Shown in pieces: positions 1,121 to 51,229 of a DNA stretch of 64,000 nucleotides. Each line of letters starts with the position of its first letter. Within the stretch, counting starts at the first letter, position 1. Source of the stretch: Beroe forskalii (lineage: Eukaryota; Ctenophora; Nuda; Beroida; Beroidae); contig WFMF01000402.1 of NCBI GenBank assembly GCA_011033025.1, positions 100,893 through 164,892 on the forward strand, in the 5' to 3' direction. The translations under genes were made by a program, and so were the position numbers. The notes under the pieces were generated by a model. That model searched no databases, was not told where the DNA came from, and was given only the letters and a program-made list of their open reading frames with translations.

Positions 1121-2658
1121 AACTCTTTTACGCCCCTCAGGCTAGAGTACGCATGGTTACTAGGTACCTGTTTCTAACACTTTGACACCCCTCAGGCTAG
1201 AGTACGCATGGTTACTAGGTACCTGTTTCTAACACTTTGACACCACTCAGGCTAGAGTACGCATGGTGACTGGGTACCTGTTTCTAACACTTTGACACCA
1301 CTCAGGCTAGAGTCCGCATGGTAACTGGGCACCTGTTTCTAACACTTTGACATTACTCAGGCTAGAGTCCGCATGGTAACTGGGTACCTGTCTCTAACAC
1401 TTTGACACCACTCAGGCTAGAGTACGCATGGTGACTGGGTACCTGTTTTTAACACTTTGATACCACTCAGGCAAGAGTACGCATGGTGACTGGGTACCTG
1501 TTTCTATCACTTTGATACCACTCAGGCTAGAGTACGTTTGGTGACTGGGTACCTGTTTCTAACACTTTGACACCACCCAGGCTAGAGTACGTTTGGTGAC
1601 TGGGTACCTGTTTCTAACACTTTGACACCACCCAGGCTAGAGTACGCATGGTAACTGGGTACCTGTTTCTAACACTTTGACACCCCCAGGCTAGAGTTCG
1701 CATGGTAACTGGGTACCTGTTTCTTACACTTTGACACCCCTCAGGCTAGAGTACGCATGGTCACTGAGTACCTGTTTTTAACACTTTGACACCACTCAGG
1801 CTAGAGTACGCATGGTCACTGGGTACCTGTTTTAACACTTTGACACCACTCAGGCTAGAGTACGCATGGTAACTGGGTACCTGTTTCTAACACTTTGACA
1901 CCCCTCAGGCTAGAGTACGCATGGTAACTGGGTACCTGTTTCTAACACTTTGACACCACTCAGGCTAGAGTACGCATGGTCACTGGGTACCTGTTTCTAA
2001 CACTTTGATACCACTCAGGCTAGAGTACGCATGGTGATTGGGTACCTGTTTCTAACGCTTTGACACCACTCAGGCTTAGAGAGTACGCATGGTGACTGGG
2101 TACCTGTTTCTAACACTTTGACACCACCCAGGCTAGAGTACGCATGGTAACTGGGTACCTGTTTCTAACACTTTGACACCCCTCAGGCTAGAGTATGTAT
2201 GGTAACTGGGTACCTGTTTCTAACACTTTGACACCACCCAGGCTAGAGTACGCACGGTGACTGGGTACCTGTTTCTAACACTTTGACACCCTCAGGCTAG
2301 AGTACGCATGGTAACTGGGTACCTGTTTCTAACACTTTGACACCACTCAGGCTAGAGTACGCATGGTAACTGGGTACCTGTTTCTAACACTTTGACACCA
2401 CCCAGGCTAGAATCCGCATGGTAACTGGGTACTTGTTTCTAACACTTTGACACCACTCAGGCTAGAGTACGCATGGTAACTGGGCACCTGTTTCTAACAC
2501 TTTGACACCCCTCAGGCTAGAGTACGCATGGTAACTAGGTACCTGTTTCTAACACTTTGACACCACTCAGGCTAGAGTCCGCATGGTGACTGGGTACCTG
2601 TTTCTAACACTTTGACACCCCTCAGGCTAGAGTACGCATGGTAACTGGGTACCTGTTT
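1121..2658 (+). repeat. 55-bp minisatellite built from a 3' splice site and exon start
   Basis: About 28 head-to-tail units of 55 bp. Successive GCTAGAG starts fall at 1141, 1196 and so on to 2626. Each unit holds a T-rich stretch, CACTCAG (a 3' splice acceptor), and the first ~33 bases of the following coding exon (GCTAGAGTACGCATGG and onward to TACCTGTTT). The last unit is the real exon start at 2626. Variation is mostly single substitutions (CACCCCTCAG, CACCACCCAG), and AG is kept in nearly all units. Because 55 is not a multiple of 3, using an upstream acceptor would shift the reading frame. Confidence 0.95.
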
Positions 2659-2838
2659 GCTCAACTCATCAACTGGTCACGAGGCAAGCCTGGATCTCTG
2701 TTGGTGCTGTCCAGTGCCAATGTGGACGAGGCCCTGGTGGGGTACCTCACTAAATACGACTGCTCCAGTGGCGACCTCAACCCTATCGGAAGCATCTGCA
2801 AGAGAGATCTCAAGAACTTCGTCAAGCATTGCAAGGAG
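2626..2838 (+). CDS. NADSYN1: NAD+ synthetase, exon with NVDE / NPIG motifs (partial gene)
   Basis: This is an exon of glutamine-dependent NAD+ synthetase, which converts nicotinate adenine dinucleotide to NAD+ using ATP and glutamine-derived ammonia, the last step of NAD synthesis in the cytosol. The 71 codons run from [14 protein letters not shown] to FVKHCKE. They contain [19 protein letters not shown] followed by DLNPIGSI, which are synthetase-domain signatures of the family. The N-terminal nitrilase-type glutaminase domain and the ATP-binding SGG motif must lie upstream of the window. Acceptor CTCAG|GC and donor GAG|gtcagt give phase 0 at both ends. The start of this exon is the terminal unit of the 55-bp array. 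Confidence 0.93.
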
Positions 2839-3064
2839 GTCAGTATGTGATACGTTGTTACCATAGTACCGATGATGTATGTTTGGTATGCTAGGAGCAC
2901 ATTTGATAACCCAAGCTCAATGTAACGATTACCGAACTGAAATCTGAATTTGATCGGTCAATTTAGTTTTCACTCCCTGATTCTCTTTTTCTATGAACTT
3001 ACCAGCCGGTAACTCATCGCTATTCATCGTTGTTATGTCACTCGATATTCATCGCTTGTTCCAG

Positions 3065-3245
3065 GTGTTCGGGTATAAATCCATCGAGGTTTTCTGACAG
3101 CAGTCCCCACCGCTGAGTTGGAACCGATCACGGACGACCATGTTCAAACTGATGAGGAGGACATCGGACTAACGTACGATGAGCTGAATGACATAGGGAA
3201 ACTCAGGAAGATCGAGAGATGTGGCCCTTACTCCATGTACACCAG
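3065..3245 (+). CDS. NADSYN1: NAD+ synthetase, exon with PTAELEP / GPYSMY; 1-nt frameshift
   Basis: The exon opens after CCAG with [10 protein letters not shown] in phase 0, continuing FVKHCKE of the previous exon. At about 3094-3097 the frame hits TGA and shifts. In the next frame it reads [31 protein letters not shown] and RCGPYSMYT, which match the conserved synthetase C-terminal region. The exon is 181 nt, and 182 would be needed to meet the next exon in frame, so one base appears to be missing. Either the assembly has an indel or this allele is broken. The donor ACCAG|gtgaga is the first unit of the 32-bp array downstream. Confidence 0.88.
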
Positions 3246-5195
3246 GTGAGATGTGGCCCTTACTCCATGTACACAAGGTGAGATGTGGCCCTTACTCCAT
3301 GTACACCAGGTGAGATGTGGCCCTTACTCCATGTACACCAGGTGAGATGTGGCCCTTACTCCATGTACACAAGGTGAGATGTGGCCCTTACTCCATGTAC
3401 ACCAGGTGAGATGGGTGAGATGTGGCCCTTACTCCATGTACACCAGATGAGATGTGGCCCTTACTCCATGTACACCAGGTGAGATGTGGCCCTTACTCCA
3501 TGTACACAAGGTGAGATGTGGCCCTTACTCCATGTACACAAGGTGAGATGTGGCCCTTACTCCATGTACACCAGGTGAGATGTGGCCCTTACTCCATGTA
3601 CACCAGATGAGATGTGGCCCATACTCCATGTACACCAGGTGAGATGTGGCCCTTACTCCATGTACACAAGGTGAGATGTGGCCCTTACTCCATGTACACA
3701 AGGTGAGATGTGGCCCTTACTCCATGTACACTAGGTGAGATGTGGCCCTTACTCCATGTACACTAGGTAAGATGTGGCCCTTACTCCATGTACACTAGGT
3801 GAGATGTGGCCCTTACTCCATGTACACTAGGTAAGATGTGGCCCTTACTCCATGTACACCAGGTGAGATGTGGCCCTTACTCCATGTACACTAGGTGATA
3901 TGTGGCCCTTACTCCATGTAAACAAGTTGAGATGTGGCCCTCACTCCATGTACACCAGGTGAGATGTGGCCCTTACTCCATGTACACCAAGTGAGATGTG
4001 GCCCTTATTCCATGTACACCAAGTGAGATGTGGCCCTTACTCCATGTACACCAGGTGAGATGTGGCCCTTACTCCATGTACACTAGGTGAGATGTGGCCC
4101 TTACTCCATGTACACAAGGTGAGATGTGGCCCTTACTCCATGTACACTAGGTGAGATGTGGCCCTTACTCCATATACACAAGGTGAGATGTGGCCCTTAC
4201 TCCATGTACACAAGGTGAGATGTGGCCCTTACTCCATGTACACAAGGTGAGATGTGGACCTTACTCCATGTACACAAGGTGAGATGTGGCCCTTACTCCA
4301 TATACACAAGGTGAGATGTGGCCCTTACTCCATGTACACTAGGTGAGATGTGGACCTTACTCCATATACACAAGGTGAGATGTGGCCCCTACTCCATGTA
4401 CACCAGGTGAGATGTGGCCCTTACTCCATGTACACTAGGTGAGATGTGGCCCTTACTCCATATACACAAGGTGAGATGTGGCCCTTACTCCATGTACACT
4501 AGGTGAGATGTGGCCCTTACTCCATGTACACAAGGTGAGATGTGGCCCTTACTCCATGTACACCAGATGAGATGTGGCCCTTATCCATGTACACCAGGTG
4601 GTATGGCCCTTACCTATACACAAGGTGATATGTGGCCCTTACTCCATGTACACAAGGTGAGATGTGGCCCTTACCCATATACACAAGGTAGAGATGGCCC
4701 TTACTCCATGTACACTAGGTGAGATGTGGACCTTACTCCATATACACAAGGTGAGATGTAATTTACTCCATGTACACTAGGTGAGATGTGGCCCTTACTC
4801 CATATACACAAAGGTGAGATGTGGCCCTTACTCCATGTACACAAGGTGAGATGTGGCCTTACTCCATGTACACAGGTGAGATATGGCCCTTACTCCATGC
4901 ACAAGGTGAGATGTGGCCCTTACTCCATGTACACAAGGTGAGATGTGGCCCTTACTCCATGTACACTAGGTGAGATGTGGCCCTTACTCCATGTACACCA
5001 GGTGAGATGTGGCCCTTACTCCATGTACACCAGATGAGATGTGGCCCTTACTCCATGTACACTAGGTGAGATGTGGACCTTACTCCATGTACACCAGGTG
5101 AGATGTGGCCCTTACTCCATGTACACAAGGTGAGATGTGGACCTTACTCCATGTACACAAGGTGAGATGTGGACCTTACTCCATGTACACCAGGT
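3216..5195 (+). repeat. 32-bp minisatellite built from an exon end and 5' splice site
   Basis: About 62 tandem units of 32 bp: GAGATGTGGCCCTTACTCCA, then TGTACACCAGGT. The first unit is the true end of the NADSYN1 exon (codons for RCGPYSMYT) plus its donor, so nearly every unit repeats CAG|GTGAGA. Variants include TAG|GTAAGA and AAG|GTGAGA, and a few lose the donor (CAGATGAGA). Units around 4580-4900 are more degenerate and carry indels. Downstream donors would add an immediate in-frame TGA (AGG TGA). Confidence 0.95.
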
Positions 5196-5618
5196 GGGAA
5201 GGGACAGAGCTAGGACCAATGCTCGGGGGAGGGGGTCACTTTGTGGGGACATTCGTTTTGAACTAATACGGAAGAAGTTATTTTGTGGAAGTAAAGTAAA
5301 TTCAGTTGAGAACTTGTTTTAAACGTAAGACAATCGAGAACTATCGAGTAATCTTGCATATTTGTCTGACTGGATTGTGATCTGAAATTATTACAGTTCC
5401 TCCCACACTTCAGTTAATATGGACTTTGAAATATGATTACACGACGTTTCAAATGACCAATGGACTATCACCTCATTTTGCTACCCTTGCTGTTACACTG
5501 CACCTGTAACGGACACCACTGAATGCTGATAATGAGATTAGAATGACTTGTTAGAATTCAAAAGATACCTAATTTGCCTTGATTGACAAATCTACCTGCT
5601 ATTTTGTTATTAATACAG
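5196..5618 (+). other. Rest of NADSYN1 intron
   Basis: Unique AT-rich sequence between the minisatellite and the next acceptor (TAATACAG). Nothing else recognised. Confidence 0.6.
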
Positions 5619-5762
5619 GTTATCGTACATGTGGACCATGTCTCCCGCTGAACTAGCCTCCAAAGTCAAGACTTTCTTCCAGAAGTACGCAATGAACCGG
5701 CACAAGGCCTGCGTTATAACACCCGCCTTCCTGTGTGAACAGTACTGTCCAGATGATAACAG
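5619..5762 (+). CDS. NADSYN1: NAD+ synthetase, penultimate coding exon
   Basis: The first base completes the AG|G Arg codon from the previous exon. It then encodes LSYMWTMSPAELASKVKTFF, QKYAMNRHKACV and CEQYCPDDN. The KYxMNRHK and SPEDNR-like segments are conserved near the C-terminus of eukaryotic NAD+ synthetase. The acceptor is TACAG|GT and the donor is ACAG|gtgaaa, leaving phase 2, as required by the last exon. Confidence 0.92.
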
Positions 5763-10303: not shown

Positions 10304-10305
10304 TA

Positions 10306-12486: not shown

Positions 12487-14789
12487 GAACAAAACTCCTA
12501 AACAACACCGCATAGAAAGTGTGTTGCGATGCATTGTATAGCAATCCTGTGTTAGGGGGTGTATACACTATTTTCTCAGCGCCTCTGTTGTTGTGATACA
12601 TTCCTCTATTCCGAAGGTCTATTCCGAAAGTCGTCTTGTTGTTTGCGTTCTGCTAAGTAATCAGTATTAACTCAGCCGTCAGGCGGCTTTGAGGCGACGG
12701 TCATGTCTTTTTCGATATACATCCAGCTACCATAGTACCAATATTTCCATCACTCTTATCTTTTCTCTGCTGCATCAGTATCTTGCTATCTACTGACGGC
12801 TCCTTTTTGTTCATTGGTCGAAACCCAAGGAAATATTTTACTTCCTTAAACATATCCCGAACTTTGAAAGACAGACGGTTATCATTGTTACCTGTGGAGG
12901 ACATGCGACTCAGTGAGACAGTAGTGCCATTATAGCGGCTTTCCGTCCACGAAGCCGCCTGGTTTTCCTTACAGACATTATCTGCAGCAGTCTGCCAAAA
13001 CTCCTGGTACATTGCTTTCTTTGGGTTGAGATCCAGGTGGAATCCACTTATAGCTAGACTGTCCAGTACTTATTAAGAATGGGTAATAGCGCTCGTATTC
13101 ACAAGACTCGGTAGCCTGTAATTGTGAGTGAACCATTATGCAACTTCTAAGGAGGTTTACGCAGTGCTCCTTTATACCCATTATGCACGCTAAAACAGTT
13201 ACACTTTAAAAAAAGTGGAACTACAGTGCCAAAAAAGTGGAACTACAGTTGATAATAAAATCATTTTGGCATTATACTCGAGTGTTTTTCAAAACGTGAC
13301 CTTACTATAGGAGGGAGAGGTGTTAAAAATGAACACTGGGGTGACAAAACTTCTGAAGGATACATTGCTTTCTTTTACAATAGCTTGAGACAAGATTCAT
13401 ATTCTCATATTCGTGCTTAATTATACATAATTATCCTGTATTATTAAGAATTTATGCCCTCGCGTAGCGCTCGGTGCATAATATCGCGGTTCCATTAATT
13501 ACCTTATTAACAGTTTAACTTGAGCACTAATAGAATAAGCAATCAGTAGAGCAGCATCACTCCACTTAATTTATATTAGCCGGGTTTAAAGGCAGGCCTG
13601 CAGTGTCTGGTAGTTCATGTGTTTTGGTAAATCAGCTGTTTCTTATACCTGATTTCATATTTCTTTCATGATGACCATGGCTTTTTGATTCCACTTATTG
13701 AGCTAAAGAATCTCGACAAGGAGATTTCTGTTCTTCGTTTCCGCACATTCTCTATGTCCACTTCAGTTTATTTACGTATGGAACCACTCCACTTTATTCC
13801 ACTTTAACCCCAGTGTGCTAACAACCGTACGCTGTGGTTAGGTTGTTGTTCTATGTAATTATACGCTAGCTTTCTTCATAATAATATACCCTACTGAGGC
13901 ATGAGCCAAGCGGGCATTCCCAACTTCAAACCTAACTTACCCATTCTCCGGAGTTGCTTGCGAGTTCCATCTCATTTTACCTGGAATGCTAGACATATTC
14001 CTAATCGGCCTTTAGTACTCATTGTTCGAACTTCCGAACTTGAAATGCTCAATTTCTTCAGATTTTACAGCTTATTCATCCTCACTACATTGTGTTGTAA
14101 TTGTATTCTTTGACACTTTTGTCCTTTTCACTTACCTGAACTACAGAATAATACACGTTTGAAGATGTCGTCATTTTCATGACATAAAATGACCAATTGA
14201 TGACTCGACACAATCTCTTATTTACACACAACCTCTGAATGAAGTTTATACTCCTGACTATGTGTACATACCAAGGGGTAGACGCCCTTTGTTATATCGC
14301 ACTTCTCATATTATGATATGGTTTGTGTTTGTGTGGGCTCGTTAACGAATAATTTGTATATTTTGTTGCTGTTGTTTCTTGTTGTGTCCAATATTCCATA
14401 ATTTGTGTAGTATTCAGTGTGCTTGATAAAACGTGTACACTGCTTCCTCTTCCCGTTCCCAAACATTTTAGCTAATTTCATGATTCGAAATTATGTACTT
14501 TGTGCGTGGGTGTGACTTAAGTTCCGTTGGAATATGTCCTCTTTTTGAATGCATATTTTGTCCAGATGCTTTTATTTACTTGTTGTGATATTTGATGTTG
14601 TTTGGCAAGTTGTCAGAAAACATGAACTATTATTTGATACATTTGCAGATTTTTGCAAACAAAACTTACTTTGAGACGAGACTAAATCATCTACTCAGAT
14701 CTCTTATCAATATTACTTCGTCATGATTAGTCATTACATCACTAGATGAGACTGAAACCGCCGCTTGCTGCACGCCGGTGACATGAGGG
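12487..14789 (+). other. PARD3 intron 1, mostly featureless
   Basis: Apart from the minus-strand ORF at 12701-13012 nothing was recognised. The sequence is AT-rich with short A-runs. Confidence 0.4.
12701..13012 (-). CDS. Unassigned ORF, 103 codons, possibly a transposon remnant
   Basis: On the minus strand an open frame reads MYQEFWQTAADNVCKENQ, then FKVRDMFKEVKYFLGFRP, and ends ISKKT. The frame stays open about 19 codons upstream of the ATG (LAISGFHLDLNPKKA). Its composition resembles real protein more than the AT-rich frames around it, but I do not recognise the family. It lies inside PARD3 intron 1 in antisense. It could be a decayed transposon gene or chance. Confidence 0.22.
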   Translation of the reverse strand: MYQEFWQTAADNVCKENQAASWTESRYNGTTVSLSRMSSTGNNDNRLSFKVRDMFKEVKYFLGFRPMNKKEPSVDSKILMQQRKDKSDGNIGTMVAGCISKKT

Positions 14790-15944
14790 ATGCAGGATGA
14801 GGTCTTCCTCCGAGTGTACGAACAGCGCCGCCGGCGCTACATCGCTTCCAAGCTGCGCCGCTGGCGCCTCGGTCTGACCAGGATCCCAGAACAGCCCGAC
14901 CCCCCAGGGGAGGGGGAGGAGGAGGAGTGGGCAGGTCACCCGACTGAGGAGAGACTTACCTTCGCGTACTCCAAGTCTCGGAGCGTGTCTCAGAGCTGCC
15001 CTCTCCTCCCCTCTGATGAGACACAACCGAGACAGGAGGAAGAGGAGGAGCCTGTGTATCAGAATATCAGTCAGGAGAATGGGGCGAGGTCGCAATGCCT
15101 GGCTGATGATGGCCTTGAACACGCCCCTTTAACATCCTCCACCCCCATGAAAACCACCTCTGCTTCGCATCGGGCGCCTTTGCCGTCTTCCCGCCTGACG
15201 TACGGCGAGCCTCCCACAAGCGGATCAGTGCTTGTTGGAGACTCCGTAAACAGTAGAGGCTGTTCTACTCTTCCAGCTTTATTCAAATCACGGGCTACAA
15301 GGGACATGTATAGCTCTGATACTGCTATAAATTCCCCCAAATTCCCGCAAAGGTCTGATGAATTAACGTTTGGAAAGCCCCCCAACCTCTTTGAAAATCG
15401 TTCACTGACGGAATCCCATCCTAGACGTTCGTACTCTACTCTTCCACCCCGGTTTAGGAATCGGAAAAAGCAGGCAACCAATGAACCCCCACAACCAGTG
15501 CATTTTACCGAGCCTCCCATGAGAAACTTCTCTCAGACCCGTGACGAACGAAGTGACGAAGAAACCCCCAATTGGGATGTCAATGCCACCCTGCCCGCGA
15601 ACTTTAGATCCCGCAGAAGCAAGGACACACGTTACCGCTCCCTCACAACCCGCAAAGTGCGCAGGAAGTCGGATGTAACCTCTCGTACCACCACCAAAGA
15701 GAATTTTGATCCTAGTTCCGTGAATGGAACTCCCCCGGCTTGGCGGTCGAGAAACTTCTCAGTTCCATGTGTTGCAATATCGCCAAACCTTGCGAAGCAG
15801 GAACGAGTTGCATTTGAAAACACGGTAGACAATGACTACACTCAAAGCAGTTCGGAGGGTAATTTCAAGAGTTGTGCTGTGCAGGCAGACCTGTTCGATG
15901 AACCCATCAGTATCTCCATCAACATGATAAGGTGCCCGAGTAAG
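14790..15944 (+). CDS. Unknown 385-codon exon nested in PARD3 intron 1, with STLPxxFRxR repeats
   Basis: The ATG at 14790 follows an in-frame TGA at 14784. The frame is open for 385 codons to a strong donor AAG|gtgagt (phase 0) and closes 14 codons into the intron. The protein begins MQDEVFLRVYEQRRRRYIAS. It then has acidic runs and three imperfect ~50-57-residue repeats, each with a (L/H)T(Y/F)(G)xPP motif (about 136, 192, 237) followed by (S/A)TLPxxF(R/K)xR (159-168, 216-225, 267-276). An EEPVYQNI segment resembles a YxN phosphotyrosine motif; this is inferred. I do not recognise a family. It could be the first coding exon of a nested gene or an alternative first exon of PARD3. The partner exon was not identified; 27212 is a candidate. 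Confidence 0.6.
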
Positions 15945-17864
15945 GTGAGTTACTTAAAAATACAATTGCTAGTTCCTAATTTCTAAACATTTCTAAATCG
16001 ATAATCAAATTTTGATTATAAACCTGTCGATGGGAATATTAGGTTTGAATTTTAAACAGAATATAATACAATTTAGATTTGAATTCATGTTTATTTTTGG
16101 AATATTCATGATGAAATTCTCGAAAAAAGTAAAATTATTCTCACAAGCAGTATAATTGGTAATTAATTAAAACTTACATGGACCTCTTCTTTCATTCCGC
16201 ACGCCTAATTCTATCTGCTATCGCACTTTAAACTGTTAAAACTTCCCCACATTCTGATGGCAGCTAACAAGATGACATACTTCCTCATTCTCAGGCTGAT
16301 TAGCGCAGTCACGGCTCACTGACCTCCGCTAATTTTATCTTGTTCATCTTACAGCACTTCACGCCTTTTACTTCACGTCAGCTGGGACAGGGTTAACATA
16401 AACATCAAACGCAGAAGATATGCATAAATATTCCGCAAGAATTAGATGCATTGAACTTATTTTCCTGTTTGCTCTTTCTTTGATTCTCAGGATCTCTGAT
16501 CCATATAAAGATTCCATATTAGAGTCGTATATAAACTACTGTCATCCTCCGCTACAGTAGTGCCCTGTGTTCACTCTGTGAACAGTATTCTATTCTTTCG
16601 CCTTGTGTTCACTCTGTCCCATCACTCTGTCCCATCACTCTGTGAACAGTATTCACTATTCTTTTGGCCTTGTGTTCACTCTTTCCCTTCACTCTGGTTA
16701 ACAGTATTCACTATTCTTTTGTGTTCAGTATTCACTGGCTCACTGTCCCTTTGCACTGCACAGTGAACAGAGGTCTCTGTTCACTGTTCATTTCACATGG
16801 TACACTATACCATGCGCTTGAGAGTTTACCGCACTGTGTTTTGTTGTATTATAAAAAAACAGCTACAGTTTCTCCTAACTCGTATAGCTGTAGTGATTGA
16901 AACACTGCATTCCAACCGTACAAACACACTCCTAATCACATTGCGTAGTAACAGGTGGATACTCTCTCAACATTGTTTTCACTTCCTTGATCCAGGTTTT
17001 GTGTGGAGCCCAGGTGTCAAACACTCAGCTTGATTTACATGTTTCATTGTTTCTTCCTGTTCTTTGATGACATAGTATCACTCTATTACGTGAACATTCG
17101 GGTAGGGATAGCATCAGATGATTTGTTGAATGGAAAGGAGTAGAGCTGCTCACTCACTTCACCCTTGTCCTAATCACGTGATGTTTTATATGAGATCACG
17201 AGCCTAAGTAGTGTTCTGAAGTATGAAGGATGACAATACAACTCACTTTTCGATCACCATGTTATCCATGGCGACGATATGATTGCAGAAATACACTCCC
17301 CAATCCTTAATAATATGTCTCAGGTCCTTCAAGAAACATTTAACAGAATCTTGTTATCTGAAATTGTTATCTTAGGCTGTTATCTAAATCCAATATTACC
17401 TTTTCCTTGTATATAGTACACAATATTAATTGTACACACGCAGTGTACAAAGTAAGGTTGGTGCTGTGTCAGACTGGATGTCTGACTCTGATCAGATCTT
17501 TGATACACATGCCACCCAGTAGCCCTTATATCAGATACCTGTGTGCTAGTGGTCGGTGGGTCAGGGTGGCCTTACTATCATTACTAAGTATGGGAAATTG
17601 GCGACTTCAATCCCTCCAAACTACGCGTACGCACGTATTGTCACAGTGTATGATCAGTGGTAGACTATGATATAGGATATTGGGTCTCTGATATAATGCT
17701 ACATCGTGCTGCTTTATTATCACATCAAATGACGCTTATAATTTCATTGTGACAATGTGATATGTTTCATGCTTTGAAAGTGCTGCAAGAGTTTTCTTCA
17801 AGGCCCAATGAGAAGTCACTGTAAAAAGTGTGTGCGCTGTGCAGTGACTTCATTTTATTGAATA
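15945..17864 (+). other. PARD3 intron 1, between nested ORF and Helitron array
   Basis: No exon was recognised. It contains a small degenerate repeat listed separately (16560-16760). Confidence 0.4.
16560..16760. repeat. Degenerate TTCACTCTGT / GAACAGTATTC repeat
   Basis: Imperfect tandem copies of a unit with TGTTCACTCTGTCCC and GAACAGTATTCACTATTC. Short frames here are by-products of the repeat. Confidence 0.7.
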
Positions 17865-24851: not shown

Positions 24852-27211
24852 GTAATTTTATTAATTATGCCAAGTTACTTCGACTGCTCCGAGCTGGTGA
24901 GTTCATTCCTATCTCCACCCATCTGAGAGTCGCGACTGATCAAATTACCCCGTGTAGCGTGAGCGTGATAACATTTCACTGCATTCCGTTAATTGCTTGC
25001 TAACCGCCCTGCCGCTCTGTCTACCATTAGAAAGAGCAGGGGATATTTCACTCTGGGAAGAGTGCCACCCACCTTTCCAGGGTCACGTGACCGATACACA
25101 CAGAGAGTGAGGTAAGCGCTATTTTAAAAACAGGAGGTGTGTGTGTTCCAGTGTGGGATTACATTCAATCCCCTTCTCCCTCTAACGTTATTGTATATAA
25201 AATTCCCTTAATTCTGTGTAATCGCATTACGGGGGCCAACACGATTGGTTGGTAATATGATATCTGTTACAAATATTATTTTGTTCTGATCTCCAGAGAA
25301 AGGGACAGTACATTCTCTCTTTGCACCGCGTGAGATGTTGTTCGGGGAGCTCCGACCATGAGACTTAGTTCATTGCTGTGTGCACTTGTTCAGCTGTGGT
25401 ATAGTTGCATTTCATTCTCCTCGCCTTTTGGTTTGCAAGAAATAATACCGATTTCGTTAACTTTTTAAAATTAAATGCTAATTTAGTAAACGTTTTACGT
25501 AAAACTCTCCAGTTTAACTTGCCGCAATGAATAAGAATCTAATATGCACATTGCAGCTGACTGTACGCTCCACACTCACAATATGAGATGGTAGTGGTAG
25601 GTCGGAGGGTGTGGTCACTGGATTTAACGCTCTCTAGAGTAACTGACGGCGGAAAGTTAGTCCGGAACAATGCCCGGACTTAAATCATACCACCACGTTA
25701 TCAAACATGTTATAACAAGTTATCATGCAGTATAAATTGACATATGATTGTGTGTGCAGAGAGCTCCAATGATTTTATTCATTCATCATCTATGTATTTG
25801 TTGTTGTTGTTGTTGGACTTTAAGTTGTAGAGGTATTATTATTTATTTAGTGATTACACATTTTGAGGTCTAATAGGCGTGTTATTTGATCTAATTCGAT
25901 TGCAGCAGTAGCAGCTTTTGTCTTTGGTTGTCTGCGATGAGAGTGTAGGAAGTGAGCTATTTACTGCACCTATTTCATTGTGTACTTGTATAACTTCCCT
26001 TTTGTATGCAAGGAGCTGTACTTGATGGATCGTAATATCATTGTTATGCTTGGAGAGTTTGAGAGTTCCTTTACACGCTATATTTAGAGAACTTTGACAT
26101 TACACGTTCGTTTACAAAACTCCTGCGTTGCACTATGTTTTGTCGTTTTGTTTTGACATGTTGAAATTAATAATCGTCCGATCGTGTCTTCGCAATTCGC
26201 TGATCAATCGCAGACGCATAATTACTATAGAATACATGGATGTGATTGATTAATTCTGCCTCAAATCCTGACCCATTATTAATCATGAGTGGAACATCAT
26301 GAGTGGAACATTATGGAACATCATGGTTAGCATGTCCAATCAACAGTACATACCTATCTAGCATAACGCCCTGCAGTAAACACTTCAACCATCACATTAT
26401 TCGGTGAAGGCATTGTCAGCTGTATATCTTAATGATTGTACGGATAAAATGAACGGGATATCTTATAAACCCACTTCCTTGGATCACGAGCAAAAACATT
26501 CCGATAACCAAACTTTGATACTTAGTCTACTATTGTTCAGCAGGTAGCTATACAATAGGCTGTGTATTATATCAATTTATTGGACAGTAATTAAATCAAA
26601 TAATTACGCTCCGTGAGTTAGTCCCAATGTAGGAATCCTCCTCTTCCTTCTCCTGAGCATGGTTATTAATACTACCAGGACATACCGCATACTACATTCT
26701 TCTATCTCTAAATAAGTAAATACTATACATGTTATCTAAATGTTAGGACTGCTGGTGGTCTGCTATTGGTATGTGATATTTAGGACATCTGTTGGTATGT
26801 TTTGTGAGGTTTAATGGAGGAGGAGGAGGAGGATAAGAGGGGGATGTAAAAGAGCGCACAGTTAACCTCTCTCTGCAAACCTCTGTTACGTGTGGTGTGA
26901 GCCCCTGTCCTATTGTGCATTATATCATTATTTTGTTGTTGATCCAGGAGGAATATTTACACAATGGTACTTCGTGTTACCCCCCTGGAGTAACCATTGC
27001 TCTTGTGTGTGTACTTTGTGTATTGAGTTTATTATTTTCTTCATATATTAAACCGGTGCTTTTGTTATACGTGCTTTTAGTCCTTTTTCGCTTGCTTTGC
27101 GTCCGCCCTTTGTTGATAATCTCCTTGTATAACTTCCAAGTAAAGTTAGTTTTGCTTTGCACATTGGAATTCTCCCCAGTAACGGTCCCCCCTTAGAGAT
27201 AATGTCTTAAG
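24852..27211 (+). other. PARD3 intron 1, no firm feature
   Basis: AT-rich. A 99-codon hydrophobic frame at 26897-27196 begins at GTG and is T-rich, with no sign of being real. A strong pyrimidine tract and TTAG lie at 27185-27196, just before the next ORF. Confidence 0.4.
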
Positions 27212-28015
27212 ATGATGGGTTCCTCATCCCCTGACCTGGACCCCGAGTTTCTGGCCCAGTTCAGTAACATCCACGCCGGGGACACTCTCTACAGGTCCTT
27301 TGCTAAGCTCGGCTCTTTGCAGCCTGCCCACATCGCTACCAGAGCTCAAGTTAGCTCCGATGCAGCACCACCTGCACCATTCCGGACCAGGTTCTCAGAC
27401 TACGCTCCAGACTCCGTGGCGCCAGACAAGACATCTGAAGAAGTGTATGAGTCAGGGTCGGAACTGGTCTTCTCAGGAGACAGCTGCTCTACCAGATCGA
27501 GTGGGAGGACCTACAGCGATGAGACTCTGGGGGATAAGTCAGAGGAATCTTACCCAGAGGACGGCGTGGCGTCTTGTTATAGTGATAATCATGTGACGAT
27601 GTCACGTGACAACCCAGAGTCGTCACCTGGTGACAGCGACCTAGCAACAGAAGATGATCGGAAGCCTCCCTCTGCCACTCTGACTCGGAACCTCTCCCAA
27701 AACATCCCTGATAAGGAATACCACTGGGAGAAGAAGGAGAAGGACCTACACACTGAGAGGCAGCAGGAGGAAGAAGAACTGAGGATGAGTAGACAGGAGG
27801 AAGAAGAACTGAGGATGAGTAGACAAGAGGAGGAAGAACTGAGGATGAGTAGACAGGAGAAAGAACCTCTGAGGATGAGTAGACAGGAAAAGGAACCTCT
27901 GAGGAGACAGTTCAGATCGGAGGAGGCTCTGTTCCTGCCCCGGAGCAGGGAATTCCTGAGAAAGCGGAGTCTGCCGGCTGTCTGCGGAAACAGTTACTAC
28001 TCCCACACGCCCTAA
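27212..28015 (+). CDS. Unknown 267-codon ORF in PARD3 intron 1, acidic/coiled-coil repeats
   Basis: The frame begins MMGSSSPDLDPEFLAQFSNI, with an in-frame TAA four codons upstream. It is Ser/Asp-rich, and at roughly residues 187-230 carries five ~10-residue MSRQEEEELR-type repeats, probably helical. The frame stops at TAA (28013-28015). The next frame is open through TTPTRPNSLSRAIYHSIVSL to GATGAG|gtagtt at 28061, which looks like a true coding continuation, so an indel near the end is likely. It may be a further exon of the gene starting at 14790, since an AAG acceptor at 27211 would join it in phase. It is unrecognised by family. Same strand as PARD3. Confidence 0.5.
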   Translation: MMGSSSPDLDPEFLAQFSNIHAGDTLYRSFAKLGSLQPAHIATRAQVSSDAAPPAPFRTRFSDYAPDSVAPDKTSEEVYESGSELVFSGDSCSTRSSGRTYSDETLGDKSEESYPEDGVASCYSDNHVTMSRDNPESSPGDSDLATEDDRKPPSATLTRNLSQNIPDKEYHWEKKEKDLHTERQQEEEELRMSRQEEEELRMSRQEEEELRMSRQEKEPLRMSRQEKEPLRRQFRSEEALFLPRSREFLRKRSLPAVCGNSYYSHTP

Positions 28016-34657: not shown

Positions 34658-34827
34658 GTGGGGCTGGAGAGAGTTCGGCAGCTGGCAGCGAACAGAGCAC
34701 GGAGAGAACCAAGCCCCAGACGATCAATGACAGCAGCTACTTCAGCCAGGAGGAGAGAATGGCGTGGATAGACAAGTGGGTGCAGGATGCAGACACCCCG
34801 GACACCAACAACAACAACACCTCCCCG
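34658..34827 (+). CDS. PARD3: PARD3 exon 4
   Basis: The acceptor is TTTTCAG. It encodes GAGESSAAGSEQSTERTKP, then SYFSQEERMAWIDKWVQDAD and an Asn run. The WIDKWVQDAD stretch resembles the short GKWLEKQEQDED segment that precedes PDZ1 in vertebrate PAR-3. Donor CCG|gttagt, phase 0. Confidence 0.9.
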
Positions 34828-35146
34828 GTTAGTGTACATTTAATATTATTTGTAATATTTCAAGATGAATTCATCTGAGCATGTTGTACTCAAGATGCCG
34901 CCAAGTGTCACGTTTAAATTTGAACTTCTTGTTTTTGGGGTGGATTATAAGGTCGTTATCATACACTTTCATTGCGTCTGTTAAGCACTTGCTTTGTGAT
35001 TTGTACACAAGCATTGTACATCTTGCGATTGTACAACGTCGACTGATGCAGACCGGTTTCGTTATGGGGAAATAGAAAAAATACTCGAAGGAGTTCTTAA
35101 TTCAAGTGAAGCTGGAATGTGTCACTTAATATAACACTCTTTTCAG

Positions 35147-41558: not shown

Positions 41559-41580
41559 CCGGATAAGATTCTAATCACTT

Positions 41581-41597
41581 GTCCACCTTCGGGTGGG

Positions 41598-41636
<39 letters not shown>

Positions 41637-41687
41637 GGCCCCTGCGCAAGGATGACACGCAAATTCGTGAAGCGTTCCAAATTTTTT
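41581..41687 (+). ncRNA. U6: U6 spliceosomal snRNA
   Basis: It starts with a 5' stem-loop (GTCCACC-TTCG-GGTGGGC). The invariant U6 core follows: ATACTAAAATTGGAACGATA, the ACAGAG box, AGCATGGCCCC and TGACACGCAAATTCGTGAAG, ending with a T6 Pol III terminator (41682-41687). The core matches animal U6 with no damaging change visible. With an upstream TATA box it looks like an intact gene rather than a pseudogene. It lies in PARD3 intron 7 on the same strand. U6 forms the catalytic centre of the spliceosome with U2. Confidence 0.96.
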
Positions 41688-43261: not shown

Positions 43262-43448
43262 TTCGACGGGAGTCGTGGCGTGGCGTTCAGTGAGCATATC
43301 CAGAGCATCCCTGTGGCGGGTGACGTGCTCGAGTCCGACGAGGACGTGGTGTTTGTCGGCCACCTCGGGGAACAGCTCGACCCTTTCAACAGGGAGAGTC
43401 TCTTCAGGAAGAGCATGAAGAAGATAGACCACGCGCCCATCACTGCAG
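43262..43448 (+). CDS. PARD3: PARD3 exon 12, aPKC-binding-like segment
   Basis: The acceptor TGCCCCTCAG at 43261 gives phase 0. An earlier AG at 43241 would put the exon out of frame. It encodes FDGSRGVAFSEHIQSIP, then DEDVVFVGHLGEQL, then DPFNRESLFRKSMKKIDHA. The last part aligns with the conserved PAR-3 segment FxRxxFGRQSMSEK, which binds aPKC and is phosphorylated on its Ser. The donor GCAG|gtgggc (phase 1) starts a small tandem array. Confidence 0.9.
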
Positions 43449-43712
43449 GTGGGCAACTGCCATCTTACGCATAGTACACGACATTAACTTTAAGGTATAC
43501 CTGCAGGTGTTATAACTGCCATCTTACGCATAGTACACGACATTAAGGTATACCTGCAGGTGTTATAACTGCCATCTTACGCATAGTACACGACATTAAG
43601 GTATACCTGCAGGTCAGGTGTTATAACTGCCATCTTACGCATAGTACACGACATTAAGGTATACCTGCAGGTGTTATAACTGCCATCTTACGCGTAGTAC
43701 ACGACATTAAGG
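43443..43712 (+). repeat. ~53-bp minisatellite at the 5' splice site of PARD3 exon 12
   Basis: Five units begin CTGCAGGTG (43444, 43501, 43554, 43608, 43667), each followed by AACTGCCATCTTACGCATAG and TACACGACATTAAGGTATAC. The first CTGCAG|GTG is the real exon end and donor, so the donor is repeated with about 6-7 exonic bases. Degraded copies recur at about 54480-54720 and a clean one at 58515. Confidence 0.88.
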
Positions 43713-43968
43713 TATCTTTAACTGCGATCAGTCTTGCGCATATCATTATACGTGTAGATACGGATCGGTAGAAACTAGAAGTAGAACTGCATTGGGATCG
43801 GAGGGCTCGATAAAGTAAAATGCGGTCAAATTTACTGCTCTCGCGTCAATCTTTCATATTTCTATTTTCTATCAAGACCAAAACTGGGCGTGTTCGTGAA
43901 GCCCTGCACACATAAGCGTTATCACTAATAACTATAAGTGTCTGATATCACCTCATTAACTCGATATT

Positions 43969-44121
43969 ATATCACCACCAAAACCGTTGGACGGTTGGTC
44001 TAGTAACCCCCCGCTGGTTTGGATGTGATCAGCCCATTTTGTCTCTTTTCAGATTCCGTTGTCACATCCAAACCCGCGGGGGGTTACTAGACCAACCGTC
44101 CAACGGTTTTGGTGGTGATAT
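43969..44121. mobile_element. Short hairpin MITE
   Basis: Two ~60-bp arms (ATATCACCACCAAAACCGTT onward, and the inverse) surround a ~33-bp loop and are nearly perfect complements. It is absent from the second copy of this locus (58838), which supports insertion or haplotype difference. Confidence 0.85.
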
Positions 44122-44581
44122 CTTGACAGATGTACGTAATTTGAACTCATGTTACTTGGGGGCGGGGCCAAGTCCAATTTTGTCCAATTATGTCCAAGGT
44201 TAACCTGATTTTTAGGAATTGGACAAAAAATCATTGGACAAAATTGGACAAAATTAGACAAAATTGGACATATTTTTAAAAAAATCCCGGATACTAAATT
44301 TCACTCACTTGTGGTGTTTTGAGTTCCACAAAGTCCACAATGAAATTTTACTCTAGCTCTATGTCACAATAAAGGGCAGTCTTGTCAGATTTTAGGGACA
44401 AAACGGAAACGTATGTATTTGGGCACACTGGAAGAACGCCAACTGGCAATGCCTGTTACCTTTCGCCAGAGGTAAGAGTGTTTTTTTAACACTCGAGTGT
44501 CCTAGTAGAGTTCGAAAGGCACATGAAGAGAATGTTTCTAAGCACTCGTGAAGTAGAGTTCGAAAAGCACCTTTCATGCCC

Positions 44582-44977
44582 CAGGGCCGTAGCCAGGATT
44601 TTTTCCGGGAGGGCCCTTGCGCCGCGAGCGAAGCCAAGCTGCGGCAGGGGGTCTGGGGGCGCAGCCCCATCGGGCTCAGGGGCGGAGCCCCGGTAAATTC
44701 TAGGGAAATTATGGGTGCTGTAGGATGATTTTTGGCAATAAAGAAATGTACAGGACGATATTTGTCAAAATCAGAGCATTGAAAAGTATACAATCAACTA
44801 TAAGCGAACTATAACAGTCAGAATAAGATTAAACTGCCACTATTTAACCAAGCCAAAGTATGTAATTATGATTATCAGTCAAAGAACTTTTATTCTAACT
44901 ATTTTTTTGAAATGGTACCCATTCTTCCGAGGGGGGCTGCAGCCCCCCTAGCCCCCCCCCCTCTGTCTACGGGCCTG
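44582..44977. mobile_element. hAT-like MITE with 8-bp target duplication
   Basis: It begins CAGGGCCGTAGCCAGG and ends with the imperfect inverse (CTGTCTACGGGCCTG). TCATGCCC is duplicated on each side (44574-44581, 44978-44985). CAGGG ends and 8-bp duplications are typical of hAT. The inside is G/C-rich near both ends (GGGGGCGCAGCCCC, GGGGGGCTGCAGCCCCCC) with an AT-rich centre. Confidence 0.88.
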
Positions 44978-45419
44978 TCATGCCCCCGACAAGCCTTCTG
45001 AACCGGTACTCAATTCTTTTCAGGAGCTAGCTAGTATTTTGGAATTAAACCTTCATTCATTATTTCGTTGTTTGTTAAATCGTTACTTGAACAGATGCTA
45101 TGTCAGATATGGCCTAGACGGTTTAGTATTATCATGGACGCTAACTAAGCTTACCAGGTCCCATCTGTTCTTGTCCATACTTTCGGCATTTATAGTCTCC
45201 TGACTTTAAGGCCATTTTACGTAAGCGTTATGCAATGATGATTTGATATTGAGTTAGAGATCGTTGGTCCAGTCCCGGGTCCCCGGCTAAATATTTCATA
45301 CTTAATGGAAAGATGTGAGTGGAAATGGAAATGATTGCTGGATTACATTAAATTGCAGCATGGCGAGTGATGTATCAATGACATCATTCTGACGTATCAC
45401 TAACAATAACACCAGTCAC

Positions 45420-46730
45420 TTCAGTCTGACGTACAATGGCTTCAGTCTGTCTGACGTATCGCTGACATCAGTCTCTCAGTATGACGTTATCATATGGTTA
45501 TAGATGAATTACAGACACCAGTGTGACGTTACATGGAGCACAGACACCAGTCTGATTTTAGACGTATCAGTATCACTGACACCAGTCCTACATTTCACTG
45601 ACACCAGTCTGATGTATCTTGACACCAGTCTGGTGGATTGCTGACACCAGTCTGGTGGATTGCTGACACCAGTCTGGCGTATCTATATCATTGACACCAG
45701 TCTGATTTATCACTAACACCAGTCTAACAGATCATTGACAGTCTGACATACCACTGATTCCAGTCAGACGTATCATTGACACCAGTCTAAGTAAGACGTA
45801 TCATCGACACCAGTCTGAAGTAAGCCGTATAAATGACATCAGTCTGAAGTAAGACGTATCGCTGACACTAGTTTGAAGTTAGACGTATCACTGAAATCAG
45901 TCTGAAATAAGACGTGTCAATGATACTAGTCTGAAGTAAGACGTATCACCGACACCAATTTGACGTATCAATGCCACGAGTCTGACATATAATCAACAAC
46001 GGTCTGATGTATCGCTGACACCAGTCCGGAGTATCACTGACACCAGTATGATGTACCACTGACACCAGTCTTACGGATTGCTGACACCAATTTGACGAAT
46101 CACTGACGCCAGTCTGACATATCATCAACAACGGTCTGATGTATCGCTGACACCAGTCCGGAATATCTCTGACACCAGTCTGGCGTATCACTGACACCAG
46201 TCTGATTTAATATCACTAGCAGCAGTCTAACACATAATTGGCACCAGTCTGACATACCACTGATTCCAGTCAGATGTATCACCGACACCAGTCTGAATTA
46301 AGACGTATCACTGACACCAGTCTGAAGTAAGACGTATCGCTGACACCAGTCTGATGTAAGACGTCAATGCTTCAATGATACCTGTCTGAAGTTAGACGTA
46401 TCACCAACACCAGTCTGATGTATCACCAAGACCGGTCTGTTCACGTTAGACTTATCTGATATCACTGACACCAGTCTGACGTTAGATATATGAGTGTCAC
46501 CCGTCGGAAGTTAGACGTATCTCTGACACTAGTCTGATGTTAGGCGTATCACTGACACCAGTTTGAAGTTAGACGTATCACCGACACCAATGTGACGTAT
46601 CACTGACACCAGTCTGACTTATAACTGACACCAGTCTGACGTATTGCTGTCTCCAGTATGACATATTGCTGACACCAGTCTGACGTATCACCGACACCAG
46701 TCTGACGTTAGACGTTTCACTGACTAGGAA
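45420..46730. repeat. Degenerate GACACCAGTCTGACGTATCACT minisatellite
   Basis: Dozens of imperfect units of about 22-32 bp with the core CTGACACCAGTCTGA followed by variable (AGTAA)GACGTATCA. It is far more diverged than the other arrays and so probably older. Minus-strand frames here are by-products. Confidence 0.9.
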
Positions 46731-46734
46731 ACTG

Positions 46735-46950
46735 CTGGTAACTATTTAACCAAACAGTAACTGAAATACTGGTTGACCGGACTTTTTCCAACTGTAACCG
46801 AAACCGTAACCGCAACCGAATGTCTTTGATTAACTGATTAGGGCAAATGGGAGGTTAACGAATAACCGAACTGTAACCGAAAAACGGTTTAACTGGCCCT
46901 TTTGTCTAACCCTAACCGTCACCGGATTTATTGAAAAAAGTTTTAGGTAA
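46735..46950. repeat. AACCG-rich low-complexity tract
   Basis: Irregular repeats of (G/T)AACCG on both strands (GTAACCGAAACCGTAACCG). Not an exact tandem array. Confidence 0.7.
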
Positions 46951-47106
46951 CCGATCGTTTGCTATCACTGACACAATTCTGAAGTTAGACGTATCAGTGA
47001 TACCAATTACCAGTTTGAACTTTGCCGTATCACTGAAGCCAGGTTGAATTTTCACTGATGTGTCGTTGTCGGTGGATCATATGATTCTGTCGTTGTACTA
47101 AAAACA

Positions 47107-47456
47107 GGAACTGGTCGATTCAAGCCAAATAAAGCTGAAACAAGCGGAACAAACCGAAACCACCCCGAACCAACCCAAAAACTTCCCCAAATGTAGCCGA
47201 AATGATCCGAAATAGTGAATCAACCCGAAACAAGTGAATCAACCCGAGTCAACCCCCGCCCTAACCATAACCCGGGTTGATTTTGGTTGATTCGCTTACA
47301 GTTGAGGATTGTTTCGTTTGTTTCGGGTTGATTTGCTTGTTTCGGCTTGTTTCAGTTCATTTCGGGGAGGTTTTTGGATTATTTCGGGAGGTTTTTGGAT
47401 TGGTCTAAAAAGGCTTCGGGTTGTTCCGCTTGTTTCGGCTTGATTTGGCTAGTTCC
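47107..47456. mobile_element. Foldback element, AGGAACT...AAGCCGAAACAAGC arms
   Basis: The left arm (AGGAACTGGTCGATTCAAGC) and right arm (inverse, ending GATTTGGCTAGTTCCT) enclose repeated AACCCGAA / TTCGGGTT motifs. The whole tract folds back on itself. No ORF of substance. Confidence 0.65.
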
Positions 47457-48109
47457 TACTTCAACTTATAGTATCGACGATGATTATTTGTATCTAGGTC
47501 CTAGAGAGGTCATGAACCTCTGTGATGGAAATCTTGACTATTGGTTCAGAATGCCGTGGCAATCACTCATAATATAGTCCATCCAACGGAGTAATGAGCT
47601 CTGTACTAACAGACAGTAACGGAATCAAGCATTATTTTGTTTCCACTTTCATTTTTACTTCCAGTTCCACTTTTTGCCTGTCGATGTTCTTCCACTACAT
47701 GGGCTGTATCTTGAGTAGTTAATTTCAAACGAAAATAAGCTACAGTAAGATACCATGGCTATATGATATTGACACTCAATAGAGGGATTGACAATCAATA
47801 GAGGGATTGTTGGATTGTATATTTAACTATGGAATTATAATTGTTGAACTCATCCAAAGCTATACAGCCTAAGAGTACAGAATGTCCAATATTGTCCAAT
47901 TTTGTCCAAAGTTAACCTCATTTTTGAGAATTGGACAAAAAATCATTGGACAAAATTGGACATAATTGGACAAAATTGGACTTGGCCCCGCCCCTACTTG
48001 CCCAAAGGTAGTTTGGACCCACGTAACTTGCCCTCACGTAGTCCGAACCCACCTTACTAGCCCAAACGCAAGTCTAACCCACATAACTCACTCTGACGAA
48101 GTCCAAAAC

Positions 48110-48485
48110 TACGTTATTCTAACTTGGAATTACTAGAATTGATATATTTCTTAATTTCTACAAATCGTCCGTGTGAACTCACGTGCTAAAATATAGCAAC
48201 CAGATCTAATTCCACGTACATTAGCCGTATTTAAACTCATTTCAACGTTATCAAGTCGAAAATCCCGTGTAAATATCAATTTCTTCAAATTCCCTAATTT
48301 CTACAAAACGTCCGTGTGAACTCACGTGCTGAAATATAGCAACCAGATCTAAATCCACGTACATTTGCCGTATTTAAACTCATTTCAACGTAATCAAGTC
48401 GAAAATCCCGTGTAAATATCAATTTCTTCAAATCCCCTAATTTCTACAAAACGTCCGCGTGAACTCACGTGCTTCACTATTCCAT
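48110..48485. repeat. ~143-bp tandem repeat, about 2.5 copies
   Basis: CTAATTTCTACAAA(A/T)CGTCCG recurs at about 48153, 48295 and 48437, each followed by TGTGAACTCACGTGCT and, in full units, TCATTTCAACGTxATCAAGT. Intronic. Confidence 0.85.
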
Positions 48486-49486
48486 CGTATATTTCCCATC
48501 ACTAGTCACTGCGAGACATGGAGAAACCATTAACAGTTCACTATCGTATCACAGAATAGGACTACAGCACAAATTTTGGTCATAAACATAATTTCGATCA
48601 ATTTGCAGTTCAATTTTAGAAGCCTCCCACGACAAGAATTTTCGACCGATCGCCCTGAAACTCGTTTTATAGCTAAATCGCAAGGTCTAAAAGCAGCATA
48701 TCAAAGTAAAACATAATCCGATGAAAACTCTTTGAGTTGGAGATGTCCAAAGTAGTGCAAAATAGCGTTCTATCGCAAAATACGCTATTTTAGTGGTTTT
48801 ACGCGATTTTGATGACGTCATCACAGCACCAAAACAGCCTCGAACCAACTTCCCATATAACCTATCACACAATTCCGTCTTAGTACAACATACTTTGACC
48901 GGTCTCATCTCAAGATAAGTTGCAGTTCTTGACATATCACTCGTTTTAGCTTTGTCCTATAATTTGGAAATCGATTTTTCACCGTACCTTAGAAAATCGC
49001 ATATATCTCGATGAAAGATCGAGATAGCCCAATAATCCATATGATTTTCTGAAAGCTCTTTAAATTTGCTAAAAATCATTCTGAAAAATCAGACAGCTAT
49101 CTCTTTTCCTTCTTGGTGAAAAATGCGCTCGAAAATAGCCTATTTTCGCTAAAAAAGCAAGAAAATTTCGCTGAGTTGATGACGTCATAAAAGCGTCATA
49201 ATGACGTCACCGAACCTTCTCATAGCCTAATCCACAATCCCATCTTAGATGAACAAAACGTGACCTCGATCATGGCTCTACCATTTCCCGTTCTTGAGAT
49301 CTCATCGTTTTAAGATAGGCCCCAATTATCATGATATTATATATTATTATTATTATTATTATATATTATATCACCCTGTGACACTCAAATCTCTAACTTA
49401 TACCCCTGGCCAGTTTTTTTTATTCCGCGGGGGGTTACCTCCCTGGCCAGGGAGGGAATCGCAATCTCCTAATTTTGCATCCTCAG
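48486..49486 (+). other. PARD3 intron 12, end
   Basis: No gene. A short ATT microsatellite (about 49330-49372) and a GCGGGGGGTTAC string near 49427 that also appears in the 43969 hairpin. Confidence 0.45.
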
Positions 49487-49652
49487 GCATGATGCGCCGG
49501 GCGTCCTCCCAAGAAATGCTGTCCAGCACCCCTCCAGTGGTACCTGTCCTGAAAAAGGGAATTTCTCAAGAGAGTGTCTTCTCGGGGAAGGACGGCGACC
49601 CTCTGTATGCAACAATTGCTGAGGCTACTGACTTTAGTGATAATACCATAAG
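49487..49652 (+). CDS. PARD3: PARD3 exon 13, copy A
   Basis: After CATCCTCAG (phase 1) it encodes MMRRASSQEMLSSTPPVVP, VLKKGISQESVFSGK, then DPLYATIAEATDFSDNTI. RRASSQEML aligns with the PAR-3 KKSSSLESL segment, a PAR-1/14-3-3 site in other animals. The donor ATAAG|gtaggg (phase 2) begins the 63-bp array. An identical second copy lies at 58856. The two cannot be spliced together in frame (166 nt; start phase 1, end phase 2). Confidence 0.93.
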
Positions 49653-51229
49653 GTAGGGATACCCTCTGTAAGCAACTATTGCTGAGGCTACTGACTTTAG
49701 TGATAATACCATAAGGTAGGGAGACCCTCTGTATGCAACTATTGCTGAGGCTACTGACTTTAGTGATAATACCATAAGGTAGGGATACCCTCTGTATGCA
49801 ACTATTGCTGAGGCTACTGACTTTAGTGATAATACCATAAGGTAGGGATACCCTCTGTAAGCAACTATTGCTGAGGCTACTGACTTTAGTGATAATACCA
49901 TAAGGTAGGGATTTCCTCTGTATGCAACTATTGCTGAGGCTACTGACTTTAGTGATAATACCATAAGGTAGGAATACCCTCTGTATGCAACTATTGCTGA
50001 GGCTACTGACTTTAGTGATAATACCATAAGGTAGGGATACCCTCTGTATGCAACTATTGCTGAGGCTACTGACTTTAGTGCTAATACCATAAGGTAGGGA
50101 TACCCTCTGTATGCAACTATTGCTGAGGCTACTGACTTTAGTGATAATACCATAAGGTAGGGATACCCTCTGTATGCAACTATTGCTGAGGCTACTGACT
50201 TTAGTGATAATACCATGAGGTAGGGAGACCCTCTGTATGCAACTATTGCTGAGGCTACTGACTTTAGTGATAATACCATAAGGTAGGGATACCCTCTGTA
50301 AGCAACTATTGCTGAGGCTACTGACTTTAGTGATAATACCATAAGGTAGGGATACCCTCTGTATGCAACTATTGCTGAGGCTACTGACTTTAGTGATAAT
50401 ACCATAAGGTAGGGATACCCTCTGTATGCAACTATTGCTGAGGCTACTGACTTTAGTGATAATACCATAAGGTAGGAATACCCTTTGTATGCAACTATTG
50501 CTGATTCTACTGACTTTAGTGATAATACCATAAGGTAGGGATACCCTCTGTATGCAACTATTGCTGAGGCTACTGACTTTAGTGATAATACCTGAGGTAG
50601 GGATACCCTCTGTATGCAACTATTGCTGAGGCTACTGACTTTAGTGATAATACCATAAGGTAGGGAGACCCTCTGTATGCAACTATTGCTGAAGCCACTG
50701 ACTTTAGTGATAATACCATAAGGTAGGAATACCCTTTGTATGCAACTATTGCTGAGGCTACTGACTTTAGTGATAATACCATAAGGTAGGGATACCCTCT
50801 GTATGCAACTATTGCTGAGGCTACTGACTTTAGTGATAATACCATAAGGTAGGGAGACCCTCTGTATGCAACTATTGCTGAAGCTACTGACTTTAGTGAT
50901 AATACCATAAGGTAGGAATACCCTTTGTATGCAACTATTGCTGAGGCTACTGACTTTAGTGATGATACCATAAGGTAGGGAGACCCTCTGTATGCAACTA
51001 TTGCTGAGGCTACTGACTTTAGTGATAATACCATAAGGTAGGGATACCCTCTGTATGCAACTATTGCTGAGGCTACTGACTTTAGTGATAATACCTGAGG
51101 TAGGGATACCCTCTGTATGCAACTATTGCTGAGGCTACTGACTTTAGTGATAATACCTGAGGTAGGGATACCCTCTGTATGCAACTATTGCTGAGGCTAC
51201 TGACTTTAGTGATAATACCATAAGGTAGG
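49608..51229 (+). repeat. 63-bp minisatellite built from the 5' splice site of PARD3 exon 13
   Basis: About 26 units of 63 bp (some 60), each repeating the last ~44 exonic bases (GCAACTATTGCTGAGGCTAC, TGACTTTAGTGATAATACCA, TAAG) and the donor GTAGGG plus ATACCCTCTGTAT. The real exon end is the first unit and differs by ACAATT for ACTATT. Downstream donors would add an in-frame TAG (AGG TAG). The repeat gives long spurious minus-strand ORFs. Confidence 0.96.

Follow-up and report, generated by a model that had tools for sequence, protein, structure and literature searches.

Six tandem arrays lie at or beside exon edges of two adjacent genes in a 64,000-nt stretch of the ctenophore Beroe forskalii genome (hereafter the window; GenBank assembly GCA_011033025.1, contig WFMF01000402.1, positions 100,893 to 164,892, forward strand). 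The genes are animal-like, the 3′ end of NADSYN1 being followed by PARD3, and the arrays, one of them only weakly, repeat short segments that include the splice junctions themselves. Judged against published descriptions, they match the structures termed "mirages" in amphioxus, and are a dense new example of that class rather than a new phenomenon. We consider it about 80% probable that they are junction duplications that were amplified, homogenized, and tolerated through splicing at the exon-proximal copy. The original prediction, made from the letters of the window, had held that no described class fits; on this comparison, the mirages of Adh3, the globin genes, PGBD5, and troponin C do.

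Splice junctions as repeat units

Tandem Repeats Finder (TRF) returned 77 rows, among which are the arrays listed in Table 1. The repeated unit clearly spans an exon-intron boundary in the 55, 32, 75, 61, and 63 bp arrays, and does so weakly in the 53 bp array. The 55 bp unit consists of 25 nt of intron and 30 nt of exon and the 75 bp unit of 54 nt of intron and 21 nt of exon, with CAGG at the boundary in every unit of both (28/28 and 27/27). The 63 bp unit joins ~56 nt of exon to 7 nt of intron, and GGTAGG marks its boundary in 26/26 units of one copy of the region (copy A) and 3/3 units of a second (copy B). The 32 bp unit is nearly all exonic plus the donor GTGAG, perhaps completed partly by exon bases, and the end of the exon forms its first unit. 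The donor GT is kept in 57 of its 62 units when counted by eye, the rest reading AT (four) or TT (one), and an alignment of 61 units agrees. As a separate observation, GGTGGAG at the exon edge of the 75 bp unit could pair with a CTCCA stretch in its intronic part to form a hairpin, and this might mask decoy sites.

The smallest member is a 61 bp pair whose two identical copies each hold 30 nt of intron and 31 nt of exon. Because the copies are exact and only two in number, this pair is the youngest-looking member and may show what the founding step looks like. The 53 bp units are almost wholly intronic, and carry a CTGCAG/GT that resembles the donor at 43448, a likeness of 6-9 nt to the exon edge; the array holds 5 CTGCAGGT sites. 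Since it starts within the intron and shares only about CTGCAG/GT with the edge, we graded this array as weak.

Five arrays had been predicted to be built from splice junctions with the true exon as terminal unit, two at 3′ sites and three at 5′ sites. TRF, homology, and the open reading frame described below confirm this for the 55, 32, 75, and 63 bp arrays, while the 53 bp array remains a weak case. All five were found, but the 61 bp pair had been missed, so that three arrays copy 3′ sites (55, 75, and 61 bp) and three copy 5′ sites (32, 63, and the weak 53 bp). Splice sites across the 55, 75, 63 (A and B), 32, 61, and 53 bp arrays total 148, in agreement with an expectation of well over a hundred near-identical sites. 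The unit sequences had been called unrelated, and indeed no match was found among the six unit consensuses at E <= 0.01.

Two lines of evidence place the real exon edges. The edges of the 55, 32, and 75 bp arrays are fixed by protein homology. The NADSYN1 exon at 2626 shares its first 33 bp with the 55 bp array, as the exonic end of the latter, and the exons that follow match residues 571-688 of 6ofb (E 7.3e-40). The PARD3 exon at 30340 matches the N-terminal domain of Par-3 (2ns5, residues 43-75) with an E-value of only 2.5e-4, and Pfam Par3_HAL_N_term with E 1.2e-5. For the 61, 53, and 63 bp arrays the reading frame fixes the edge: when the nine PARD3 exons between 39445 and 63288 are joined at GT/AG sites, using the exon-proximal unit of each array, 804 residues read in one open frame up to the stop. 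The joined PDZ exons have DLG4 (2xkx) as their best match, in three stretches, with Par-3 chains ranked next. We nevertheless assign the gene to PARD3, as this is what the N-terminal domain supports.

Table 1. Arrays and exons in the window (positions count from its first letter)
Feature	Start	End	Strand	Evidence and remarks
55 bp array	1116	2658	+	TRF x28.1; over 3′ splice site of NADSYN1 exon; 28 acceptors
32 bp array	3216	5196	+	TRF x62.0; over 5′ splice site of NADSYN1 exon 3065-3245; 62 units
75 bp array	28403	30360	+	TRF x26.4; over 3′ splice site of PARD3 N-terminal-domain exon; 27 acceptors
61 bp x2 duplication	39617	39738	+	TRF and exon chain; over 3′ splice site of PARD3 exon starting PDZ2; 2 acceptors
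~53 bp array	43455	43715	+	TRF 53 bp x4.7; starts just inside intron after PARD3 exon 43262-43448; weak member
63 bp array, copy A	49598	51234	+	TRF x26.0; over 5′ splice site of PARD3 exon 49487-49652; 26 units
63 bp array, copy B	58966	59153	+	3 units; in colinear second copy of region
NADSYN1 exon	2626	2838	+	Aligns from residue 487 of 6ofb, E 1.5e-26; Pfam NAD_synthase
NADSYN1 exon	3065	3245	+	Homology to 6ofb
NADSYN1 exon	5619	5762	+	Homology to 6ofb
NADSYN1 last exon	6074	6233	+	Homology to 6ofb
PARD3 first coding exon (MKVTVCFG...)	7869	7988	+	E 4.5e-9 with a sequence probe
PARD3 N-terminal-domain exon	30340	30442	+	2ns5 and Pfam; end placed by eye
PARD3 exon at start of PDZ2	39708	39779	+	PDZ homology and exon chain
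PARD3 exon before 53 bp array	43262	43448	+	Exon chain
PARD3 exon, copy A	49487	49652	+	Exon chain
PARD3 last exon in window	62199	63288	+	Exon chain; holds in-frame 21 and 27 bp coding repeats

Several other features of the two genes were noted. In the NADSYN1 exon at 3065, conserved residues are split over two frames with no read-through in the assembly, which may reflect a sequencing error or a variant. The last PARD3 exon contains two further minisatellites, of 21 bp (62670-62758) and 27 bp (62881-62946), with periods that are multiples of three; this contradicts an earlier statement that the other minisatellites of the window avoid exons. A full-length match to U6 spliceosomal RNA (116 bits, Rfam RF00026) lies within a PARD3 intron at 41581-41686 (+), on the strand of the gene. 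The large first PARD3 intron holds open frames at 14787-15986 (399 codons) and 27203-28015 (270 codons), the latter including an in-frame 30 bp repeat, and a Pfam scan of these two frames gave no match above the curated cutoff.

Relation to amphioxus mirages

Repeats of exon-intron boundaries are described in amphioxus globin genes (PMC3087553). The same source recounts earlier Adh3 cases from Branchiostoma floridae and B. lanceolatum, termed "mirages" and credited there to Canestro et al. (2002, Nucleic Acids Res 30:2871), and mentions similar structures at other amphioxus loci. In its account either the 5′ or the 3′ boundary may repeat, AG/GT is present in many units, haplotypes differ in unit number, globin BflGb6 having 6 in one and 3 in another, and data from RT-PCR (reverse transcription PCR) for Adh3 and the globins suggest regular splicing. 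Lancelet PGBD5 carries imperfect tandem repeats of 60 and 108 bp that abut or overlap splice sites and vary in copy number between two genome sequences, and a troponin C case is cited alongside (PMC3902484). Introns of an amphioxus VCBP gene contain complete or partial exons, some with splice sites (PMC2632668). Among the matches listed from the open-licence literature there was no genome-wide survey of the mirage class; the papers cited here describe it gene by gene.

The Beroe arrays resemble mirages in that either boundary is duplicated and the units carry AG or GT. The number of 63 bp units differs between copies A and B, which would parallel the amphioxus globin haplotypes if the two copies are alleles. 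The arrays differ from the Adh3 and globin mirages, as these are presented in the source, in being more numerous together (six in two adjacent genes) and in having more units (up to 62). The PGBD5 repeats are reported with 2-7 units only, and two 108 bp repeats had been annotated there as exon. Regular splicing is suggested for the amphioxus mirages by RNA; the 804-residue frame, read here from DNA, is at most consistent with it. Intron gain by tandem genomic duplication in potato RdRp (PMC4974935) likewise involves a within-gene duplication tied to intron structure. There the duplication is reportedly linked to a new intron, while in Beroe an existing junction has been multiplied and no new intron is evident.

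We infer the following mechanism from the six arrays. A short segment of a few dozen bases over an exon-intron boundary would be duplicated in tandem by an ordinary duplication. The duplicated junction would then be amplified and homogenized by unequal exchange or slippage. Survival of an array would rest on the exon-proximal copy, which retains an entire splice site and connects to the body of the exon; splicing probably picks this site. The remaining copies would stay in the intron or, if used, mostly give frameshifted or prematurely stopped mRNAs. If only duplications with a whole site in the exon-proximal copy are tolerable, this would account for the 25 nt or more of intron in 3′ units and for the few intronic bases that suffice in 5′ units. 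In the 3′ units the intronic part measures 25, 30, or 54 nt, and a donor is present in the 32 and 63 bp units, as expected if arrays were filtered for an intact exon-proximal site.

Placement relative to exon edges

Overlapping TRF rows were merged by hand into 44 loci, 43 with a period of at least 10 and 27 with a period of at least 20. Copy B and the loci of a low-quality stretch (58180, 58966) were excluded from the placement test. The 33 splice edges were placed by hand to within a few bases; one was entered as 43242 where the true position is 43262, and of the exons that supplied edges, the one at 34658-34830 is the least certain. Five of the 27 loci carry one of these edges inside the repeated unit, where a single-unit null predicts 0.67 (P(>=5) = 3.7e-4). 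A sixth, the 53 bp array, lies at most 8 nt from an edge and would lower the single-unit value to P(>=6) = 2.9e-5, although it qualifies only when a margin of 8 nt is allowed, which the null lacks, leaving a strict count of five. A whole-array null gives a mean of 3.16 for the same loci (P(>=5) = 0.194, P(>=6) = 0.075) and, for periods of at least 10, a mean of 3.66 (P(>=6) = 0.141). Edge enrichment therefore hinges on the null chosen. We think that the single-unit null is preferable, because the edge must lie inside the repeated unit itself. These statistics describe a window that was chosen for its arrays, and cannot stand for the genome.

A mutational process that starts preferentially at splice junctions, through co-transcriptional breaks, R-loops, or spliceosome-linked or RNA-templated repair, could have seeded the arrays. 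The excess of edges under the single-unit null is what such a process would give, and edges are likewise where the amphioxus cases in the literature lie, although it was this position that led to their being reported. Yet the count is not unusual under the whole-array null, neither GC skew nor hairpin potential is consistent across the units, and the window was picked for its arrays. Seeding at junctions thus seems unlikely, though worth keeping in view. The broader proposal, that in this lineage short tandem duplications favor splice junctions via a transcription- or splicing-coupled process, making exon edges hotspots for minisatellites and hence for intron remodeling, is doubtful to the same degree.

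Two specific seeding routes were rejected. For R-loops there is no consistent coding-strand excess of G over C, with skew ranging from -0.30 to +0.08 in the six units. For hairpin-driven slippage, folding stronger than that of shuffled sequence is confined to two of the six edge units, those of 75 bp (z -7.2) and 63 bp (z -3.4); the other four range from -1.4 to 0.8 and three non-edge units from -1.2 to -1.0, in a test on doubled units that may favor repeats. Of the alternatives raised at the outset, seeding or tolerance, it is tolerance that fits these findings, with R-loop seeding left unsupported. The suggested shared tendency toward exon edges is borne out by recurrence and by the single-unit excess, but within the window it does not show against the whole-array null.

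Conservation and consequences of the decoy sites

Retention of the arrays for a function, such as isoforms of variable length or regulation of splicing, might be expected to leave a mark on the decoy sites. Every unit of the 55, 75, and 63 bp arrays has the consensus AG or GT core, and in the 75 bp array the acceptor motif of nine bases falls in the best-kept 9% of windows, the only hint of special keeping. However, many other two-column windows are kept equally well: 22% of them in the 55 bp array, 34% in the 75 bp array, and 61% in the 63 bp array. For the 32 bp array, where the donor G has changed 5 times among 61 aligned units, 71% of windows have as few changes as the donor GT. The splice cores do not stand out in conservation from many other columns, and the decoy sites bear no clear mark of having been either purged or specially retained.

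Use of a decoy would nearly always break the reading frame, which also speaks against a function. All alternative units matched by pattern in the 55, 32, 61, 63, and 53 bp arrays shift the frame or reach a stop; the pattern gave 28 matches for the 27 upstream 55 bp units (one site twice), and matched 56 of 61 units in the 32 bp array. The 75 bp array has 26 alternative units: 16 shift the frame, 7 reach a stop, and the 3 nearest stay open, and would lengthen the protein by 25, 50, or 75 residues. The expectation that one unit per array gives the protein fits the units matched by pattern in the other five arrays; these three acceptors are the exception, and count in favor of variable isoforms. 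The difference of 26 against 3 units between copies A and B is a further point against retention for function, and we regard that explanation as very improbable.

The true site is set apart by its closeness to the exon and not by its strength. This follows from 56 donors in the 32 bp array, among them the true one, scored against the nine-base U1 consensus. Sixteen match at 7 positions, as the true donor does, 37 match at 6, and 3 match at 5.

Two copies of the PARD3 region

The segment at 43649-54383 (copy A) recurs colinearly as 58496-62012 (copy B, ~3.5 kb). The two align in six blocks, and 64 of the 2,540 aligned columns are mismatched (2.5%). The copies also differ by large indels, one of ~5.5 kb. 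For comparison, heterozygosity in amphioxus is given as 3.2-4.2% (PMC12500494). The simplest reading is that A and B are probably two alleles strung end to end by the assembly, in which case the 26 and 3 units of the 63 bp array would represent a length polymorphism. A real tandem duplication of the PARD3 exon could also have produced two copies, but alleles fit better.

Sequence that looks to be of low quality and rich in homopolymers occupies 54.4-58.5 kb and 63.5-64 kb. The first of these stretches separates copies A and B and includes fragments of the 53 bp unit. It is also partly an inverted repeat (54841-55263 against 57985-58409). An assembly or sequencing artefact, which this sequence and the likely false duplication would favor, is the least probable reading of all, as the large arrays sit in clean-looking sequence, their units carry variants, and the 63 bp array is found in both copies.

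Some observations sit poorly with the account of tolerated junction duplications. Tolerance alone predicts no excess of arrays at edges over introns, yet the single-unit null shows one. The arrays are known from a single assembly, in which sequence of apparently low quality lies close by. Copies A and B have not diverged evenly, with 0 mismatches in 180 exon columns and the 246 columns to their left and 2.76% to the right.

Significance

In the large arrays dozens of similar sites stand against one that keeps the frame, which makes them natural test cases for the spliceosome's choice between almost identical sites. If placement at exon edges were non-random across the genome, it would point to a form of mutation coupled to splicing.

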